64,000 nucleotides of DNA, taken from contig JANDJZ010000057.1 of NCBI GenBank assembly GCA_027943245.1, positions 62,001 to 126,000 on the forward strand. The letters run 5' to 3'. Position numbers and translations under genes: made by a program. The notes beneath the pieces are model-generated. The model did not search any database. It saw nothing but the letters and a program-made list of their open reading frames with translations, and was not told where the DNA came from. Shown here one piece after another: positions 54,236 through 64,000 of the stretch (the first letter of the stretch is position 1; every line of letters starts with the position of its first letter). The stretch comes from Acanthamoeba sp. SK_2022b. Its lineage: Eukaryota > Discosea > Longamoebia > Acanthamoebidae.

Positions 54236-54599
54236 GGGGCTGATTCTGGATTCGACGGGATTTGCGAAGCCCTAGGAGCATGCCGAGGGGCGGTTGGCCT
54301 CGTAAAAAGCCGCAAAAAAATAGTCGCAAACGACGAAAACTACGCTTTAGCAGCTTAATACCCTGCTTAGAGCCCTCTCTCCCTAGCCTCCGCTCTTAGG
54401 ACGGGGATCAAGAGAGGTCAAACCCAAAAGAGATCGCGTGGACGTCCTGCCTGGGGCTGAAGCGTTAAACTCAATCAGGCTAGTCTGTCAGTAGCGTGTC
54501 CATCCGCAGCTGGCCGGCGAATGTAAAGATTGGACTAAGCATGTAGTGCCGACGGTGTAGTAATTTCGGACGGGGGTTCAAATCCCCCCAGCTCCACCA
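54236..54599 (+). ncRNA. ssrA: transfer-messenger RNA (tmRNA)
   Basis: The 364-nt RNA starts GGGGCTGATTCTGGATTCGA and ends GCTCCACCA, pairing as an Ala-tRNA-like acceptor. The tag reading frame at 54326-54358 encodes ANDENYALAA followed by TAA. Pseudoknot regions follow the enterobacterial sequence closely. It frees stalled ribosomes and tags the nascent peptide for ClpXP. The ssrA 3' end is a frequent integration site for mobile elements, and the accessory block starts just after it. Confidence 0.98.
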
Positions 54600-54641
54600 A
54601 ATACGTCGCCAGTGAACCAGATAGACCCGGCGATAATAGCG

Positions 54642-54674
54642 AAAAAGCCCACAACTTCGGTTGCGGGCTTTTTT
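54642..54674 (+). terminator. terminator after ssrA
   Basis: AAAAAGCCC...GGGCTTTTTT hairpin with a TTCG loop and a single mismatch in the stem. Confidence 0.88.
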
Positions 54675-55370
54675 GTATCCGTAATCGTTCGAGTTTATCC
54701 GGCTAAATCTGGAGACTGTTGGTATGCGGTTTGATATACGCTAAATTGATACCAATTACGTACAACCAATAGATGGAAGACTCCGTGCATAGCGTGGACT
54801 ACATAAGTATAAAAACCAGAGCCCAGCAAATGGCAGAATAGCAGCAAATTGCCTTAGAGAGCATTTTTGCAGCCGTCGAGGCCAATTGGTTTGCCCTTAA
54901 GCGAACAAGGATAACTGCGGACTAGCCAAGGATATCTGGCGATCTTAAGAAAGTTGTTTTCCGAGGTCTGTAGTTATCCTAATTCAGGAAATTAAGGCAA
55001 GAATGGTGATTGAAGCATTAGTATGGCAATAGTAGAGTGCATTCCAGTTTCAGTTAGTTGACGGATCAACGCACCCCAGTTTGGGTAGCTCGCAAGAAAC
55101 TACTGTTTACAGTTAACCAAGGGAGTTCCAACCGTTTAGCTATACGCTTCTGAGGCAGACAACCTTGATTATGGAGAATAAATACCTCGATAAACCATAC
55201 CCTTTTACTTATAAAAAAATACCCATTAAGCAGATGACGATCATTATTTTCGAAAAAAAGCCACCCTAACAGACGTTTAGAATGTAATTTCTACAGCTGC
55301 GCCGTGATTAGGTAAACATATCACTTCTGTTCAGATGGACGAATTCAGTAAGCCACTCTACTACCTAAGG
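54675..55370. other. gene-free AT-rich stretch after ssrA
   Basis: About 700 bp with no intact gene on either strand. A short plus frame from 54774 (MEDSVHSVDYIS...) is stopped by a TAG after about 22 codons and then continues open for about 28 codons. It could be the relic of a decayed gene. No tRNA, IS end or second copy of the ssrA 3' end is visible. Confidence 0.5.
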
Positions 55371-56090
55371 TTACAACATAAAAGGTTGGTTAGAGCTAGT
55401 TTCAATTGGAAGATATCGTTCCTTATCGCCTCGCAAGATATGCCCGTCCAGAAAAAGGCTACGTAGCTGAGCTGTCGACGATATGCGCATTTTTATCATG
55501 GCGTTCCGTTTGTGCGTGCTTATAGTTTTATATGCAACATTAAATTTCTTGGCCAAACACTTGATACTATCCCCTTCAATGATACCTGTAATTATAGCTA
55601 TTTCACTAGGTGTGAGGTTTGACATGGGAGGACCTATGTAAAACTGGGAATTATATGAGGCAAAATTCTCTCCATCAAAAAATCGTGTCAAAAAACTAAC
55701 AAAGCAACTTATGTCAATTTTTTTTGGTATCTGCCAGCCAGCCTCCCCCCGCTCAAAATTATTGAATTTATTTATAAACATGGTCGGTTTTGAAGACCAG
55801 AGCAGACACTTTACTGACGGATGATAAGTGGCCATGAAGTGAGTGAACTCTCCCCAGTTATTATAACTCTCATTCTGACCGAAGGCCTCCATCAAATAGA
55901 CATCGGCAGGCCCTTTCCTCAGCGCCAAACACATTAGTGCGGATAGACTGGATACCACATCGGTAACATTTATTCTTTCAACAAAATATTTACTTAATAC
56001 CTGAACCATACTCTCCCGATAAAAAACCACCGGATCCATCACTACAATATTTATCTTTCTGTTGTTTTTCTTCAAGATTGCGATGCCCAT
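55371..56090 (-). CDS. LuxR-type regulator with a receiver-like domain
   Basis: The product has 239 residues. The N-terminal half looks like a degenerate response-regulator receiver (NIVVMDPVVFYRESMVQVL, about residues 13-31). The position expected to hold the phospho-Asp reads VYLMEAFG, with Glu in its place. The C-terminal helix-turn-helix (LTPSEIAIITGIIEGDS, CLAKKFNVAYKTISTHKRNAMIKM, about 157-200) is LuxR/FixJ type. It lies downstream of fimH on the same strand and probably regulates the fim operon, as FimZ or FimW do in Salmonella. That role is inferred from position. Confidence 0.8.
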   Translation of the reverse strand: MGIAILKKNNRKINIVVMDPVVFYRESMVQVLSKYFVERINVTDVVSSLSALMCLALRKGPADVYLMEAFGQNESYNNWGEFTHFMATYHPSVKCLLWSSKPTMFINKFNNFERGEAGWQIPKKIDISCFVSFLTRFFDGENFASYNSQFYIGPPMSNLTPSEIAIITGIIEGDSIKCLAKKFNVAYKTISTHKRNAMIKMRISSTAQLRSLFLDGHILRGDKERYLPIETSSNQPFML

Positions 56091-56216
56091 GTAATAACCA
56101 TATACTTATGACCCCGAGCGCAAGTAGTTTCGAGATTAAACGAGCCCTACATGATAATCATGTCGCGAATTTTTATCTGCTAAAGCGTTTTATCGAGGTA
56201 TAAGATATAGATAATG

Positions 56217-57188
56217 CTACTCGTAAACGAACGTCACGCCAATAATGGACTGAACATTGCCTGCTACCACTTGCCCATTGATTCGTGCATAGGAAGCCGT
56301 TAGTCCCAAACTTTGGGGGCTGGTACCGACCGTACCGAGAGAGACATTCTTATTGGTAGCTACAATGCCATTACGGTTAGACAGTTGTACGCCAACGCCA
56401 GTAGCCGGATTTGAAGATGACGTATTGGTAAATATGGTGCTTGCCGTATCAGCAGTTGTGCCGGTCAGATAATAAGCCAGCTGTTGGTTTTGTCCGCAAT
56501 GGACAGTCAGCGGTACAGCAGCCGTGCCGGGGTAATCCGGCAAGGTAACCGTCACATTGCGCGATGACACGTCGCAACCACCAGTGGGAACCACCACTGT
56601 GTTATTAGCATAAATATTCCATGTGAAACGGTCTATTGTGCCATTTTGTTGACCGGTTTGAGGGTTTGTTGAATATTTATACATATTTAATCTGGCAATC
56701 AAACTACCCTTATTAATTAATACTCCTGACGCCGCTGAAATAGGCTTCAGAAATAGCATAACATTCCATGGCTGATATGAACTGGTTGTAAATGCGGTCT
56801 CTTTGGTTCTATTAGTAACTGGCAGTGGATAGCTTGAATTATAATACTTCACCGTTCCTGTGAAATTTTCCAGCGCCCCACCATAGGCGCTGCCGTCATT
56901 TAAAGCCACCCAGTCAATATAGGATTGTGGAAGTTCATTTCGACAACTTATGCTTGAGTTTAGGTCTACAACGAGGTTCTGACCAGCCTGTACGCTAGGC
57001 GTTAAGTTAGCATAAACAGTGAAAGTTCCTGCCCCTCCTCCAGAGCTAGAATTAATTACATTTCCTGTAGCATCCTTACAAGCAAAAGCATTAGCGCCGG
57101 ATGAATATGCCATTAGGCATACAGAAGCCACGAGGGCAGCAACTTCTTTTTTCTTCAACACTTTATTTAGTTTTGAAACCAGTGTCAT
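56217..57188 (-). CDS. fimH: type 1 fimbrial tip adhesin
   Basis: The 323-residue precursor starts at the ATG at 57188, 7 bp after GAGGAG. The signal peptide ends SGANA and the mature protein begins FACKD, so Phe1, needed in the FimH mannose pocket, is kept. An N-terminal lectin domain is followed by a linker (VVPTGGCDVSSRNVTVTLP) and a pilin domain ending GVTFVYE. Asp54-like (YIDWV) is present. The 133-142 loop is about six residues longer than in E. coli, and the Asp47 equivalent reads Glu. Last of the structural genes. Confidence 0.92.
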   Translation of the reverse strand: MTLVSKLNKVLKKKEVAALVASVCLMAYSSGANAFACKDATGNVINSSSGGGAGTFTVYANLTPSVQAGQNLVVDLNSSISCRNELPQSYIDWVALNDGSAYGGALENFTGTVKYYNSSYPLPVTNRTKETAFTTSSYQPWNVMLFLKPISAASGVLINKGSLIARLNMYKYSTNPQTGQQNGTIDRFTWNIYANNTVVVPTGGCDVSSRNVTVTLPDYPGTAAVPLTVHCGQNQQLAYYLTGTTADTASTIFTNTSSSNPATGVGVQLSNRNGIVATNKNVSLGTVGTSPQSLGLTASYARINGQVVAGNVQSIIGVTFVYE

Positions 57189-57204
57189 GACGTGACTCCT
57201 CAAT

Positions 57205-57708
57205 TTAGGCGTAAGTGTATGTGACATTAATTACGGCCTGAATACTGCCTTGCTTGGCGTTGCCATTAACTGATAACGCACGAACCTGTAATGGCAGACT
57301 CGCTGACTGTGTGGAATCATCAACCTGAACCGCCTTGGTTTTTCCGTTGTTTAGGTTATTGCCACTGGTGTCCTGCAATTCCAATTGAAGATTGGTTGCC
57401 CCACCTTGATTTTTGTAATATCCCGTGCTGTCCGTTGTCCCCGTGAATGTTGCCGTGACTCTCGAAGTGCCTATTGGACAATTGGTCAAATTCAGCGTTA
57501 CCGGATGCCAGGCTGAACCCGAGCCGGCCTGTATATAATTAAATGTAAACAAGTCGCCCAAGTCTACCGTCGCCGATGGCGTTGATACGGTGCAGGGCTT
57601 GGCCACTACGCGTCCGTTGACCGTAATGGTCACGTCAGCTGCATGCGCGGCGAATGTTGTAGTAAAAAGCAACGCCCCCGCCAGCATAATGTTCTTGATA
57701 ATGATCAT
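57205..57708 (-). CDS. fimG: minor fimbrial subunit, FimG-like
   Basis: The 167-residue pilin-fold protein has a signal peptide ending AAHAAD. The conserved Cys pair (KPCTVSTPSATVDLGDL ... LTNCPIG) and C-terminal beta-zipper VINVTYTYA are present. It lies between fimF and fimH, the FimG position, where it links the adhesin to the tip fibrillum. It starts 12 bp past the fimF stop. Confidence 0.85.
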   Translation of the reverse strand: MIIIKNIMLAGALLFTTTFAAHAADVTITVNGRVVAKPCTVSTPSATVDLGDLFTFNYIQAGSGSAWHPVTLNLTNCPIGTSRVTATFTGTTDSTGYYKNQGGATNLQLELQDTSGNNLNNGKTKAVQVDDSTQSASLPLQVRALSVNGNAKQGSIQAVINVTYTYA

Positions 57709-57720
57709 CTTCAGACTTCC

Positions 57721-58245
57721 TTACTGAAACTCTAAGGTGAAATTGGCCGTCGCTGTCACTGTTCCTGCCATCACGGGAGCGCGCGTTGCCATTAAGCGTG
57801 CATAAAAGCCCAACGTATTGGGCTGGCCCGCCGTCAATGTCGTCCACTTCAGGGAGTCCTGAGCCGCATTTAATGGAATCGGAGTCTTGTCGCGATCCAG
57901 TATTTGCACTCCAATACCGCTTGCGGCGTTTGTTCCAGCATCAATCTTTAACAGGGTAGTGTTGTCGTTGTCAGAGGTTCCGACATACCCCACGCGAACT
58001 GCCGTCGCGGAACTGCCGCACTTGTCGAAGACAATCTTGAAAGGTATGGATGGCGTGACGGCCCCAACCCGGTTGAATTGCTTGGCCGCATTGCTCAACA
58101 AATCCACCGTAAAATCCTGAGAGTCAACAGAGACCGAGCAGGCATTGTCTTTTAGATAACCTGTGATGGTGATAGTACTGTCCGCCGCATGGGCATATCC
58201 CGCAACCAACGGCAACAAACACAGGATTGGAAGGTATTTTCTCAT
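57721..58245 (-). CDS. fimF: minor fimbrial subunit, FimF-like
   Basis: The 174-residue pilin has a signal peptide (ending YAHAAD), the Cys pair (NACSVSVDSQ ... FDKCGSS) and C-terminal ATANFTLEFQ. It follows the usher gene by 21 bp, with AGGAGA before the ATG. It is the predicted adaptor in the tip fibrillum. Confidence 0.87.
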   Translation of the reverse strand: MRKYLPILCLLPLVAGYAHAADSTITITGYLKDNACSVSVDSQDFTVDLLSNAAKQFNRVGAVTPSIPFKIVFDKCGSSATAVRVGYVGTSDNDNTTLLKIDAGTNAASGIGVQILDRDKTPIPLNAAQDSLKWTTLTAGQPNTLGFYARLMATRAPVMAGTVTATANFTLEFQ

Positions 58246-58266
58246 TGCGTCATCATCTCCTGCTTA

Positions 58267-60858
58267 TCACCGGCAAATGGCAGAGGCATAGCTCAAAGCC
58301 TGGTTTTGACTGTCAGCCGGCAAACTGTACGTCGCCGTGCAGCGTTCATTTTCGCTATTGCCCCACCTCACGTTGACGGTACCTTTTGGCGCAAGGCCGG
58401 TAAGGTAAACTTGCCCGCCATCTGCCACGATGCTGCCTGACTGACCATCTCCGTAAGAGGCTACAGAGCCGAACGGGACTGGCTTGCCGTTGTTTGTCAA
58501 TGTCATAAGAACCTTCAGCCCGACTTTGGCCTTGAAGTCCGCACGCACGACGGCTCCCCGTGTAGGAACGACGCTTAATACCGGTTCCTCCAGTTCGACG
58601 TTGTTCGCCAGTGTATTCGTGTTCAAGGATATCCGATTCTCGCGGTAGTCCATCGCATAAGGGAGCACGGCATAACCACGCCAATCTGTACGCACCCCTG
58701 TTTGATTCTCGACAGAAACGTGTTTCGCCCCCGGCGCCTTGATAAGCACCATGGTGTCATTGAGTGGCTGGCTGAAGGTGATGCCATTTTCGTGGGCAAG
58801 TACGCCACCACTGGCACCATAGTAAATCTGCTTATAGTCACCGCTGTGGCTATAACCGACGTTGGCGTTGCCGTAAGCGCCGCGGTAATTCAGCGCGGCG
58901 TTACCCGTTGCGCCGCTGTTACCATTACCGCCGCTGTTATAGCCCGATTGCACGCTATAACTCAGGTTGTTATCTTCCAGCAGCGTCCCGTAAAGGCCGG
59001 CCGTATTTGTCGTACGTCCCTTGAAGTCTGTCGACGTGTTGTAACTGGCATTGGCATTTCGGAATACTGACCGGGTATCCGAGCGCATCCAGTGGCTGAA
59101 CGGAATATTAATGTTGAAAGCAAGCAGTTGGTCTTTATCGTCGGACCAGGCATTTTTGGACAGACTATAACTCAGGCTCCAGCTGATATCCTGAATGGTG
59201 CTGTTATAACCAATCTGCAGCTGTTCATCTGAACGGCTGGTATTCCAGTAGCTTTGATGACTGCCAGTCAGGTATATCGTCGATGTCCGTCCAACCTGTT
59301 GCGTCACCGTCGCCTGCAAACGACCGCGCTTGCTGTAGTTCAGATTGTAATAATCCGTCAGCTTTGGTTTGATATTCACGATCCCGTCTTCACTAATCAC
59401 GGAGTAACCGCTCATGCGTCGCCACGCGGTGTCGGCCAGAGAATAGAAGCCCCGAGTAGAATAACGGTATCCGACCAGTTGGAAATTGGTCCCTAACTCA
59501 TTGAGCGATTTGTTATAGAGAAAACGCAGAGATTGTCCCTGATGCTTGCTGCCGTCAGGCAAGGTGGCATTCGCCTGCGTAATATCTGAAGATACCGCCC
59601 CGAGGTAGCCCAGGTTTTTTCCCACCCCGAGGTTAAAGGCACGATAGTCGTTTGAGGCACGTGTGCCGCCATAGACCGTCCAGCCATCGGGTAATCCCCA
59701 AAGCGCCGTTCCCTGGAAAAACTTCGGCTTGTCTTGTTGTTCATTACCACTGCGGAACTGCCCTGCAGTCACCGCGTACTTCACCTGTCCTTCACGCTGC
59801 AACATCGGGACGGATGAGAAGGGAACGGTAAAGACCTGAACGGAGCCATCCGCCTCTTTCACCGTCACCTGCAGATCGCCACTGTTTCCTGCCGCATACA
59901 GATCACCGATAGTGAATGCGCCGGCGGGTACCGTGGTCTGATATATTTCATATCCGTTCTGCTTGACCGATACGCGTGCGGTACCACGTGCTATTCCATG
60001 TATAACAGGAGCAAAGCCGCGTTGACTGTCGGGCAGCATATTATCGTCTGTGGCAACCTGAAGGCCGCGGAAGTTGATACCTTCAAAGATATCACCCGCA
60101 GTATAGCCATCACCCATCGTCAGCCGGCTGCGCCAGGATACAATGTCACGTTCAAGCCAGGTATTGACATGTTGCCAGCGATTTTCGTTATATCCCGTGC
60201 CGCTGCTGTAACTCCAGGTTGAGTTATCCCGCAGGCGCCATGCCCCCAGGTTGAGACCCGTTTGCAGATTGAGATAGGCGTAATTGCGGGTGCCGCCATT
60301 GTGACTGCGCACTTCACTGCCGGTATAGTTGTAATTGAGCAAACCGGCCGTAATACCATTATCCCAAAGCTCGGGAGCTATGTACCCTCTCGCCTGATTT
60401 CCCATGAAAGCCTGAGGAATGCTGATGGAAAGACGCTGGCGACCGACATCGAATGAGCTTGCAGCATCAGCAATAAGCCGTGTGAAAGGCACGCAGGCCG
60501 TGCTCTTCATTACGGCAATATCTGGAATAGTCAAGGTATTGACGCCAAGTGAAGCCAGCTGAGAGCGAGTGAGACACGGTTCCAGCTTGCTACCGTCATC
60601 ACTTTTATCAAAGGTGATGTCTCGCGTCGTCACGTAACCCTCGTTCATGTAAATGTCGACACGATAGGTACCCGGCGGCGCATCAAGCCCCTTTTCGAAA
60701 CTGGAGAGATCGGCAACCGATGCCGGGTCGTCAGCCAGGAACCGGGGATTGAAGTAGTTGTCTGCGCGCGCGGAAAATGTCGAAGCCACCAAGAGCAATG
60801 CCAGCGGCGTAAGCATTGCTTTGTTTAGCGCCCGTTCCCGGATGTGGTATTTTTTCAT
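58267..60858 (-). CDS. fimD: fimbrial outer-membrane usher
   Basis: The 863-residue usher has a signal peptide (about residues 1-32), an N-terminal periplasmic domain with NYFNPRFLADDP, a 24-strand barrel with the plug domain, and C-terminal domains. The last residues include a Cys pair (ENERCTATY ... ASAICR). It is the assembly platform and pore for chaperone-subunit complexes. Confidence 0.95.
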   Translation of the reverse strand: MKKYHIRERALNKAMLTPLALLLVASTFSARADNYFNPRFLADDPASVADLSSFEKGLDAPPGTYRVDIYMNEGYVTTRDITFDKSDDGSKLEPCLTRSQLASLGVNTLTIPDIAVMKSTACVPFTRLIADAASSFDVGRQRLSISIPQAFMGNQARGYIAPELWDNGITAGLLNYNYTGSEVRSHNGGTRNYAYLNLQTGLNLGAWRLRDNSTWSYSSGTGYNENRWQHVNTWLERDIVSWRSRLTMGDGYTAGDIFEGINFRGLQVATDDNMLPDSQRGFAPVIHGIARGTARVSVKQNGYEIYQTTVPAGAFTIGDLYAAGNSGDLQVTVKEADGSVQVFTVPFSSVPMLQREGQVKYAVTAGQFRSGNEQQDKPKFFQGTALWGLPDGWTVYGGTRASNDYRAFNLGVGKNLGYLGAVSSDITQANATLPDGSKHQGQSLRFLYNKSLNELGTNFQLVGYRYSTRGFYSLADTAWRRMSGYSVISEDGIVNIKPKLTDYYNLNYSKRGRLQATVTQQVGRTSTIYLTGSHQSYWNTSRSDEQLQIGYNSTIQDISWSLSYSLSKNAWSDDKDQLLAFNINIPFSHWMRSDTRSVFRNANASYNTSTDFKGRTTNTAGLYGTLLEDNNLSYSVQSGYNSGGNGNSGATGNAALNYRGAYGNANVGYSHSGDYKQIYYGASGGVLAHENGITFSQPLNDTMVLIKAPGAKHVSVENQTGVRTDWRGYAVLPYAMDYRENRISLNTNTLANNVELEEPVLSVVPTRGAVVRADFKAKVGLKVLMTLTNNGKPVPFGSVASYGDGQSGSIVADGGQVYLTGLAPKGTVNVRWGNSENERCTATYSLPADSQNQALSYASAICR

Positions 60859-60975
60859 GTTATCCGTGCCTGCTCCATAAACCAGGTGACTTGTCGCTAC
60901 CGCACGCCGTCATCAATGCCGGTGCTGCGTTACCTGCGTTATTGAATCCATTGTTTTAGTGAATGACTCAGATCG

Positions 60976-61677
60976 TTACTGCAAGGTGCCTTTCATCACA
61001 GACGTGAGCGCACCGTAATCATTAATCGTGCGATATGTAATTGCACTGCCGGCATCGCCCGGCAGTTTCACCGTTGCCTCCCCCATAGGCGGGACCATGA
61101 CATTGGCTAATGAACGTGTGCCGGCATTCAATTCCGTGACGGTCAGAAAATAGGGTGTTGGATTATTCAGTACCAGTGTGTTCGCATCGCGTTTAAACGT
61201 CAGTTTTCCGGGGGCCTGATCAGGCGCCATACTGAGATTTTGTGGGCGATACAACAATTTGATTCGGCTCGTTATCGCCAGTTGAAGCGTATTTTCTTTC
61301 TGTTTTGCCTTGTCCAGAGAGGGAATGGCTTTGACGTTGACCCAGAAAAGACTTTCGCGGTCTTTAGGCAAGGCGTTATTGGTTGCATCAATAATACGCA
61401 GCGTATTTTCTTTTTTCCCCTGCATGAGGAACAACGGCGGAGTAATAACGAACCGGCCTTCTTTTTGACCATCATCGTTCTCGACCCAGGATTGAATAAG
61501 AAAGGTGTCTTTATCATTATTGTTGCTCACACCCAGAGTGACCTGTTTCTGTTCTGCCGGATAAATAACGCGTGTTGCCCCAAGAGCCACGCCCGCTTCA
61601 GCATGCGGAGTACAAAATACGACTGCCAAAGCCAGCAGTGAACCCATGACGTTTCCGGTCGCTTTCATTTTAATCAC
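60976..61677 (-). CDS. fimC: periplasmic fimbrial chaperone
   Basis: This 233-residue PapD-type chaperone has a signal peptide ending HAEAG and donor-strand region G1 near VLNNPTPYFLTVTEL. The conserved GVALGATRVIYP and RESLFWVNVKAIP segments carry the anchor Arg and Lys. The start is GTG, 5 nt after GAGG; an ATG three codons later has poorer spacing. It lies between fimI and fimD, as in E. coli. Confidence 0.93.
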   Translation of the reverse strand: MIKMKATGNVMGSLLALAVVFCTPHAEAGVALGATRVIYPAEQKQVTLGVSNNNDKDTFLIQSWVENDDGQKEGRFVITPPLFLMQGKKENTLRIIDATNNALPKDRESLFWVNVKAIPSLDKAKQKENTLQLAITSRIKLLYRPQNLSMAPDQAPGKLTFKRDANTLVLNNPTPYFLTVTELNAGTRSLANVMVPPMGEATVKLPGDAGSAITYRTINDYGALTSVMKGTLQ

Positions 61678-61768
61678 GTTAACCTCTTGGGCGGATAACC
61701 GCCGTTTTAACCTTTTGCGCGCGCTTATCTCATCCGAGATAAAAGTTTCATACGCGAAAACGAATGTT

Positions 61769-62308
61769 TTATTGGTATGTCAAAGAGAACCAAGCCTGGG
61801 CATTTGCAGCACCACCGATAACCGTATTGCCGGTTGCCCGATATTTGGCAACAAATTGCAAGATACGCGTTCCTTTAGTCAGCGGTTTCCAAGACTGAGG
61901 TTCTGAATTAATGGGTATGAGTTGCCCCTGTTCATCGAACAGGGCGATGCCGACGCCAGACGCAATTCCCTCGCCTTCGCCAACCGACAGAACATCAGGG
62001 TTTTTGCCATCGGCTACGCCGTGAAAGACGATACCGACGCGATCGCTGACATTGGGATTACAATCCTGGAGATGCAAACTGAACGGCACCGGATCGGCGT
62101 CATCCCCTGCATCCTTGAAACGGTTACTGCTAACCTGTCCCATGCGAACAACCAGTTGCCTGTCACCCGCCTCAACCGTACAGGCTTCAGCGATGAGCTC
62201 CCCCTGAAAGCGCATCTGTCCTCCAGGAAGCGTGACGTTCCACTTGTTGCCGGCGATAGACAGAGGAGCAATGAAAAGCAGGCAGAGTCCCAGTCTGGTT
62301 TTGAGCAT
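61769..62308 (-). CDS. fimI: fimbrin-like protein FimI
   Basis: The 179-residue pilin has a signal peptide (about residues 1-20), the Cys pair ([11 protein letters not shown] ... LQDCNPN) and C-terminal [10 protein letters not shown]. It lies between fimA and fimC. In E. coli FimI is thought to end fibre growth and anchor the rod. A GAGGG site precedes the ATG. Confidence 0.87.
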
Positions 62309-62377
62309 CGCTTATTCCCTCTTCGATAGCTGAAAACAGGCCGTCCTGGCCTGATTAAGCATCCTTGCAGACCGGTA

Positions 62378-62926
62378 TTACTGGTACTGAACTTTAAAGT
62401 TGGCGTTCGCGTTGGCAGTACCAGGAGTGGCAGCACCGGTGGCGATGTAACGCGCCTGGAATGGCAGAGTGTTGGTACCGTCAGTCAGAGTGGCAGCAGT
62501 ACTGAAGGTTGCACCGTCGAATGCCAGCGCTTTGCCTGCACTGTCCAGCACCTGCACACCCACGTTGGTAGCACCACCCGCAGAGGAGCTTTCCAGTGCC
62601 AGAGCAGTTGGGTTCTCAGCATTGACAGCAACACCAGAGAATGCAATGGCCGCTTTGGTAGCAACGGTGGTATCGCAATCGTTCAGCTGAATGTTGAAGC
62701 CTACAGCAGAGCTGGTTTTACCCGCCTCGCTCAGCGTGGCAGTTTTGACCTGGCCCAGCTGGACGGTTTGGTCTACAGAACCGGCATCAACGGCGCAAGC
62801 AGCGTTAACTACTTCACCTTTAAAGTGAACGGTACCACCGTTAACGGTAGTAGTTGCTGCATGAGCCAGGCCAGCAGTCATCAGAGAGGCGGCAATCAAG
62901 GTGTTGATAAGACGGATCTTACGCAT
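62378..62926 (-). CDS. fimA: major type 1 fimbrial subunit
   Basis: The 182-residue pilin has a signal peptide [20 protein letters not shown] continuing to AHA, then [21 protein letters not shown]. The Cys pair is NAACAVD ... LNDCDTT, and the C-terminal strand is NFKVQYQ. It forms the fimbrial rod. The gene starts 115 bp downstream of the left repeat of the invertible element. A 44-codon longer frame crossing that repeat is rejected. Confidence 0.95.
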
Positions 62927-62955
62927 AAGTTCAAAACTCCATGTCTTGGTAAAAG

Positions 62956-62968
62956 GCCAATAATTGGC
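62956..62968. promoter_or_regulatory. palindrome in the fimA leader
   Basis: GCCAAT-A-ATTGGC, 30 bp upstream of the fimA ATG. It could be an operator or an mRNA hairpin near the ribosome site. Confidence 0.45.
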
Positions 62969-63041
62969 ATAACAACTTGATTCAAATGAGCATTTTTTCT
63001 GTTTGTCTCGCGCCAAATCGAACACGGAAAGACAAAAAAAG

Positions 63042-63064
63042 TAGTCAAAATGAACCAAATTGTA
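63042..63064. repeat. left 23-bp inverted repeat of the fim switch
   Basis: Begins TAGTCAAAATGAACC; an exact reverse complement of 63328-63350. It lies on the fimA side. Confidence 0.95.
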
Positions 63065-63327
63065 TCATTTGGAGTTAAATATTGTTTTTTGCATAATTAC
63101 AGTTAAATGCTTCTAAATAAATATGCATTGTAGTCAAACAAGCTGGAGAGGCGATTGATGGGATAATATAAGAATGGATAAAGTATGGATTGCGACTGCA
63201 AAGAATTTTGCACTCTCAGATGTTTCTGCTGCGGTTGGCTAGTTAGGTAACTAATAAAAGCGGATATTCTGTTAAAAAAAAGAATCCAAGAAGAATTGAC
63301 TTGGCGCAAATTATAGACGAAACTAAT

Positions 63328-63350
63328 TACAATTTGGTTCATTTTGACTA
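63328..63350. repeat. right 23-bp inverted repeat of the fim switch
   Basis: Begins TACAATTTGGTTC; exact reverse complement of 63042-63064. It ends 6 bp before the recombinase stop codon. Confidence 0.95.
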
Positions 63351-63356
63351 ATTCCT

Positions 63357-63917
63357 CTACAATTCCTTTTGCCAAACCTCTGCAAACCGACGATGATTGC
63401 TCGAGGTATATAACACTGTGTGTTGAATGTTTCTATGTCCCAAATAGTCCTGTATCAGCCGCGTATCTGTCCCCCTGTTAGCCAAAGCATATCCGCATGA
63501 ATGCCTCAACATATGTGGATTAAGAGAGACGGCGATACTTGCCAAGGAACCGAACTTCTTCATCATGTTATAAACTTGTTGGCGAGAAAGAGGACCGCCT
63601 TTTTGCGAGAGAAATATCCAAGGTGATTCGCAGCCACGCCATGTTACTCTTTCCTCTAGCCAAGCTTTTAGAAGCTTTATCTCTGAAGCCAAAAGTGGAT
63701 GCGTTGTTTTTAAGCCGCTTTTTAGCCTGTTTACGTGCACGACTTTATCAATGAGATTGATATCCGAAAATTTTAAGTGGCAGAGCTCACTAACCCTGAA
63801 ACCATGAATAAAACACATTTGAATAAAACACTCATCTCGCTTAGGGAAACTTCCTTTACGAGATGCCTCAAGCAAGCGATCTATTTCATTTTGTGTAAGA
63901 TATTTTCTTTTCTTCAC
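63357..63917 (-). CDS. FimB/FimE-type tyrosine recombinase
   Basis: The product has 186 residues from a GTG at 63917 preceded by GGAGGTG; a Met 22 codons upstream lacks such a site. The complete tyrosine-recombinase set is visible: Arg in FIHGFRVSELC, HMLRHSCG (His and Arg), LGHRNIQH (His) and the nucleophile Tyr in VLYTSSNHRRF. Length and sequence fit the short FimB/FimE recombinases that invert fimS. It sits like fimE, upstream of the switch on the fim strand. FimB- or FimE-like directionality cannot be told by eye. Confidence 0.9.
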   Translation of the reverse strand: MKKRKYLTQNEIDRLLEASRKGSFPKRDECFIQMCFIHGFRVSELCHLKFSDINLIDKVVHVNRLKSGLKTTHPLLASEIKLLKAWLEERVTWRGCESPWIFLSQKGGPLSRQQVYNMMKKFGSLASIAVSLNPHMLRHSCGYALANRGTDTRLIQDYLGHRNIQHTVLYTSSNHRRFAEVWQKEL

Positions 63918-64000
63918 AGAAACACCTCCATATTTTAGGCCGTGTGAAAAATTACCGTCGATTTTCAAGCTTCTTGATATCAATAGTATTATCTCAAGTG

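Follow-up and report, generated by a model that had tools for sequence, protein, structure and literature searches.

A 309-bp element at the right end of the window (the whole 64-kb stretch of DNA that was analysed) is very probably a phase-variation switch of the fimS type, inverted by the product of the adjacent recombinase gene and connecting or disconnecting an internal predicted promoter and a type 1 fimbrial operon. This reading is built on the sequence of a bounded element, a complete recombinase gene with its catalytic residues, a complete operon and arms that fit the profile of the family. An element occupies the same place beside a recombinase in L003, L004, L005 and five Serratia marcescens plasmids. 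We propose that the tyrosine recombinase would recombine the two 23-bp arms, with crossover within the central hexamer GAACCA, so that the element inverts. After inversion the predicted TTGACT promoter would face fimA.

Should inversion occur, some of the variability in Serratia fimbriation would be traceable to a simple genetic cause. No phase switch at a Serratia type 1 operon is described in the titles and abstract starts among the matches listed, and the S. marcescens work cited in PMC11316696 (in excerpt) concerns catabolite control.

The repeat-bounded element and its linked recombinase

The recombinase gene, the element, fimA-I-C-D-F-G-H and a LuxR-type gene follow one another at the right end of the window, all genes on the minus strand:

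63357..63917, minus strand: tyrosine recombinase of the FimB/FimE family (PF00589, NF007370), GTG start predicted
63042..63350, no strand: predicted invertible element, 309 bp, with perfect 23-bp inverted arms
62378..62926, minus strand: fimA, major subunit (NF011741, above cut-off)
61769..62308, minus strand: fimI (NF052361, above cut-off)
60976..61677, minus strand: fimC-type chaperone (PapD domains; best NCBIfam model FimC, below its cut-off)
58267..60858, minus strand: fimD usher (domain and NCBIfam model matches)
57721..58245, minus strand: fimF (NF052362, above cut-off)
57205..57708, minus strand: fimG (NF052363, above cut-off)
56217..57227, minus strand: fimH-type adhesin with a mannose-binding domain (PF09160)
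55371..56090, minus strand: LuxR-type regulator gene downstream of the operon (PF00196)

The initial annotation had likened this layout to E. coli fimE-fimS-fimA, and the likeness is borne out by a FimB/FimE-family recombinase, a repeat-bounded element and a complete fimAICDFGH operon. Its description of a gene-free 309-bp element, bounded by perfect 23-bp inverted repeats and lying between a complete FimB/FimE-type recombinase gene and fimA, also holds. The arms (63042-63064 and 63328-63350) are complementary at 23 of 23 positions, stretch to 26 bp if one mismatch is allowed and lie 263 bp apart. Among exact inverted repeats of the window whose arms lie no more than 1 kb apart, this one is the longest, the runner-up being 14 bp long, while the longest such repeat in 20 simulated 64-kb sequences measured 12-16 bp. 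A search of the window with the 20-bp centre of the arm, allowing up to 3 mismatches, found no place besides the two arms; the 44.9-Mb assembly held two extra matches, each with 3 mismatches, against one for a reversed-pattern control. The element is AT-rich (GC 32% vs 59% for the window). Two mechanical open reading frames touch it, one at 63103-63375 on the minus strand and the other an upstream extension of the fimA frame, and family-model searches gave neither of them family support. Only 6 bp separate the recombinase stop codon from the element, and the start of fimA (62926) is 115 bp from the fimA-side arm. The 549 bp of fimA equal the length annotated on S. marcescens plasmids.

The recombinase gene is complete within the window. 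Its product scores 162 bits with PF00589 and 260 bits with the NCBI tyrosine DNA invertase model NF007370 (cut-off 221), but 206 bits, below the cut-off of 222, with NF007371; of the NCBI models, E. coli FimB has its best score on the former and FimE on the latter. The enzyme shares 53% identity with FimB and 46% with FimE, and the closest database protein, 99% identical, is named Serratia marcescens. Translation likely starts at a GTG at 63917, 7 nt after GGAGGT, although the open frame runs on upstream. Residues R63, K88, H157, R160, H183 and Y192 are invariant in all 13 aligned family members, and we take K88 and H183 to be among the catalytic residues of this enzyme. R, H, R and Y form the tetrad named for FimB and FimE (PMC9820224, in excerpt). 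No second invertase was found at the locus or in the next 8 kb of the contig, which leaves a single linked recombinase.

Recombination sites, crossover and direction of switching

Each arm contains a 21-bp site of the family:

63044..63064, plus strand: fimA-side recombination site, profile score 24.1 bits, predicted crossover hexamer GAACCA at 63052-63057
63328..63348, minus strand: recombinase-side recombination site, profile score 24.1 bits, predicted crossover hexamer at 63335-63340

These scores come from a profile of 36 arm rows from 18 loci, with duplicates collapsed, drawn from Erwinia, Photorhabdus, Proteus, Providencia, Morganella, Hafnia, Franconibacter, Trabulsiella and Phytobacter; it was built without any Serratia or Escherichia and includes one misregistered row (L004dn2). 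Over the 64-kb window the two arms rank first, and the next-best place, with the arms' own reverse strands set aside, reaches 6.1 bits. The top score in the E. coli fim locus is the left fimS site with 23.8 bits; the right site reaches only 12.2, and a place inside fimS with no known site scores 20.2. The best match of the arm itself in that locus (17/23) is weak alone, as 17 of 300 shuffled arms reach at least 17 somewhere in it, but it still counts because it falls on the known right fimS site.

Three expectations of the initial annotation are not supported. The repeats had been called unrelated in sequence to those of fimS, a view we reject given the near-equal profile scores and the match at the right fimS site. 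A different site specificity had been suggested for the recombinase, whereas, in sequence terms, a profile made without either genus finds both the window's arms and the E. coli left site. Nor is the repeat length special against the 9 bp of fimS: when the inverted repeats of relatives were scanned on both sides of the recombinase gene with mismatches allowed, Proteus showed arms of 23 bp and Photorhabdus arms of 26-28 bp, mismatched at one or two positions. E. coli fimS has additional, nonidentical binding elements for the recombinase around its 9 bp (PMC11316696, in excerpt), and the repeats of E. coli hyxS are 16 bp long (PMC6083910, in excerpt).

For the centre of the sites, 42 elements were picked by hand, giving 31 distinct pairs. 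Not among the 42 were L054; L077, with its repeat 553 bp away from the enzyme; L031 and L039, which contain Ns; L056, which is N-masked; and duplicates (L122, L135 and L137, for instance). The central hexamer is the same in both arms in 30 of the 31 pairs, with 12 different hexamers among them and GAACCA in both arms of the window, an agreement inflated because arms were found by mutual similarity and obtained with a site caller that favours a few fixed positions. In 5000 random re-pairings of arms the number of identical hexamers averaged 4.2 and never exceeded 12. The exception, with unequal hexamers, is Hafnia alvei L055. Tyrosine recombinases need equal crossover regions. Since the hexamer is kept identical between arms across the family yet differs between systems, we infer that crossover would take place inside GAACCA. 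The recognition of seemingly dissimilar repeats by Fim recombinases is described as an open question (PMC6458436, in excerpt), on which these 31 aligned site pairs bear. At the level of sequence, the locus shows four traits of fimS/Mrp-type switches: a short tyrosine invertase with catalytic residues, a repeat-bounded element of ~250-320 bp beside it, arms of the family type and an identical centre.

The two complete sites of the window are identical over all 21 positions, a state reached by none of the other 30 distinct pairs; the nearest of these agree at 20 positions, the three plasmid types at 17-19 and E. coli at 15. The one-way action of FimE in E. coli is attributed to the sequence surrounding the repeats (PMC6083910, in excerpt). 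Taken together, these points lead to the prediction that the core sites alone give no preferred direction, so that a bias towards OFF would need neighbouring DNA, transcription or accessory proteins. The OFF state predicted for every Serratia copy is hard to square with unbiased switching, although the sites of those relatives are unequal. Fully symmetric sites are a natural case on which to test the idea that Fim recombinases owe their direction to unequal half-sites (PMC6083910, in excerpt).

Predicted promoter, orientation and competing explanations

Two features bear on the expression of fimA:

63296..63324, plus strand: predicted promoter inside the element, TTGACT at 63296-63301, 17 nt, weak GAAACT at 63319-63324
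62970..62982, minus strand: match to the IHF consensus within the fimA leader, 60 bp beyond the fimA-side arm

At the recombinase end, 37 bp separate the TTGACT box from the site core; in the deposited orientation the box faces the recombinase. A TTGA[CG] box stands 36-39 bp from the site core at that end in 18 of 23 elements, E. coli MG1655 included, at the fimA end in one (L055) and at neither end in four, in a set of relatives that are not independent and with a distance picked after viewing the elements. As the box points away from fimA, like that of E. coli MG1655, the deposited orientation is predicted to be OFF. The best -10 candidate is poor (3/6 matches), and a consensus promoter scan of 62900-63500 found none inside the element and one promoter-like site outside it, against 1.7 expected; promoter and OFF state are thus predictions. 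Hafnia alvei L055, which has the sole fimA-end TTGAC box of the 23 elements and the sole unequal hexamer pair of the 31, was possibly deposited in the ON orientation. An IHF-consensus match is also present, 60-73 bp beyond the fimA-side arm, in 7 of the 9 relatives from Serratia and Erwinia that were compared. It was not found at that place in L004, L005 or E. coli, where the outer IHF site (IHF-1) is on the other side, adjoining the left repeat (PMC9993118, in excerpt).

Flipped copies were sought in plasmids, Serratia genomes and viral contigs, and none was seen among the alignable copies. Seven related loci were compared, and the four with an alignable interior (L083, L133, L134, L135) all have the window's orientation relative to their flanks. 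The viral contigs hold six distant enzymes (39-55% identical) and no exact 20-mer match. In Photorhabdus a related enzyme adjoins a 319-bp element that occurs in both orientations. Our pairwise set comprised 37 elements, namely the window's and 36 from near 79 loci that passed thresholds for score, length, N content and core motif; of its 93 pairs whose flanks are conserved, 30 consist of two oppositely oriented elements, all 30 within Photorhabdus. These pairs show inversion for the enzyme family and not for the window's own element.

A former switch now locked OFF, with an element and enzyme that look intact, inversion too rare to be of use and fimA silent or driven from outside the element, is an improbable alternative. 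The single orientation of all four alignable relatives and the weak -10 hexamer would agree with it, but the recombinase gene is complete with its catalytic residues conserved, and both sites are perfectly preserved. Moreover, a deposited genome displays a single majority state, so a working switch could likewise produce a common OFF state.

The same assembly contains a second chaperone-usher fimbrial operon (L123:6774-7325 and L124:4775-5667; contig C309 of G000, ~276.8-285.7 kb) whose two FimB-family invertases share 51-52% identity with the window's; one of them adjoins a 321-bp element (L124 4775-5095) with 25-bp imperfect inverted arms. Loci related to it are found in 11 Serratia genomes; the switch has the same orientation in 10 of the 11 examined, L155 not being alignable. 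We think it quite improbable, more so than a locked switch, that the window's element flips mainly through another invertase acting in trans, such as one of these paralogues. The presence of both in one assembly and the similar site (15.9 bits) of the paralogue beside its own element speak for such an action, and unlinked Fim recombinases acting on E. coli fimS provide a precedent (PMC6458436, in excerpt); against it, the linked gene is complete and adjacent, and the C309 site is centred on GAACTA, the window's on GAACCA. That the repeat arose by chance, or acts as a hairpin terminator or attenuator, with recombination absent, can practically be dismissed: nothing was found in support, a search of 62900-63500 gave no terminator-like site, and the arms exceed the simulated maximum of 16 bp, match an independently built site profile and are 263 bp apart. 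We keep to inversion by the adjacent recombinase as the preferred reading.

A mosaic, mobile operon and its known relatives

The operon lies in an island next to the tmRNA gene:

54236-54599: ssrA (tmRNA gene)
54600..64000, no strand: window part of a ~10-kb fimbrial island, with ssrA on one side; the backbone resumes at L002:2745

Similarity to the Serratia backbone stops just past the tmRNA gene and resumes ~10 kb on, from L002:2745; in G016 the two island flanks are ~330 bp apart. In several Serratia genomes (e.g. G013, G014, G017) the sequence at and after the end of ssrA (54577-54683) is present again close to the island's far boundary, as would be seen at an integration hotspot. No convincing direct repeat of the ssrA end was found at the far island boundary of the window's own contig. 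This Serratia-like contig (C730, 157,824 bp, G000) belongs to a 44.9-Mb assembly of 1129 contigs, far too large for one Serratia genome, and may stem from a symbiont, a contaminant or a mixed sample.

Among 30 Serratia genomes, only G001 matches fimA, element and enzyme in one piece; the match in G002 is split in two, and G015 matches fimA and the leader with a diverged enzyme. The G015 operon is on a 94.8-kb contig, probably circular because both ends continue the same gene. This plasmid-type operon is otherwise 98% identical to the window's, but the N-terminal part of fimH (lectin domain, 56628-57077) has no blastn match in it while both sides match; from the sequence, the binding domain appears to have been replaced locally.

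Most of the operon is also present on five S. marcescens plasmids, where it is 97-100% identical to the window over 58000-62378 and has a recombinase and a ~310-bp element in the same place. In three of own type (pAM01, pE13 and the AGR_1573 plasmid) the element interior is partly alignable and the recombinase has ~81% DNA identity (63500-63917); in two of other type (pET_P3 and pTE4) the interior is not alignable and the recombinase has ~62% over the same span. Against the pET_P3 type (L122, L136, L137), identity is 97-99.5% between 57100 and the end of the leader, 96% across the fimA-side arm, 31-40% in the interior (forced alignment) and ~62% in the recombinase. Against pAM01 (L133) it is 99.8% in fimA, 82% in the leader and 81% in the recombinase. 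Similarity to the pET_P3 type stops at 63063, one base short of the inner edge of the fimA-side arm. Such a breakpoint could reflect either a cassette exchanged at its own site or homologous recombination that ended where homology ended. It is tempting to speculate, although we hold it to be rather unlikely, that switch and recombinase form a cassette swapped between fimbrial operons at the fimA-side arm, which would serve as inversion site and docking point and give the plasmid and chromosomal copies of one operon different enzymes and promoters; the exchange here would have left identical sites with no built-in direction.

The E. coli fimS switch (314 bp) and the window's share the layout, the type of operon, the length of the element, the families of recombinase and site, and the place of the TTGA box. 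However, FimB and FimE are both linked in E. coli, against one recombinase here; its sites, with nonidentical binding elements, agree at 15 of 21 positions instead of 21; its crossover centre is GGGCCA; and it has no IHF-consensus match at the place that corresponds to the window's, IHF-1 being beside the left repeat (PMC9993118, in excerpt).

The Photorhabdus system shares a related recombinase (57%, L008), long arms and the site family, and both orientations are found there. Its element lies upstream of the recombinase gene with the centre GCACCA, whereas the window's lies downstream with GAACCA. We presume that this Photorhabdus element with 26-28 bp arms is the Mad switch.

The MR/P switch of Proteus mirabilis, where MrpI is the sole linked recombinase beside an invertible element (PMC9820224, in excerpt), is similar to the window in its single linked enzyme. 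It serves MR/P fimbriae, while the window's element adjoins a type 1 operon. The Proteus relatives (L045, L049, L050, L053, L054) have the element upstream of the recombinase gene and not downstream; Proteus arms of 23 bp carry one mismatch where the window's are perfect, and their centre is ACACCA. In summary, the sequence points to a switch of a known kind, less ordinary for its fully symmetric sites and for an apparent cassette exchange in a mobile operon.
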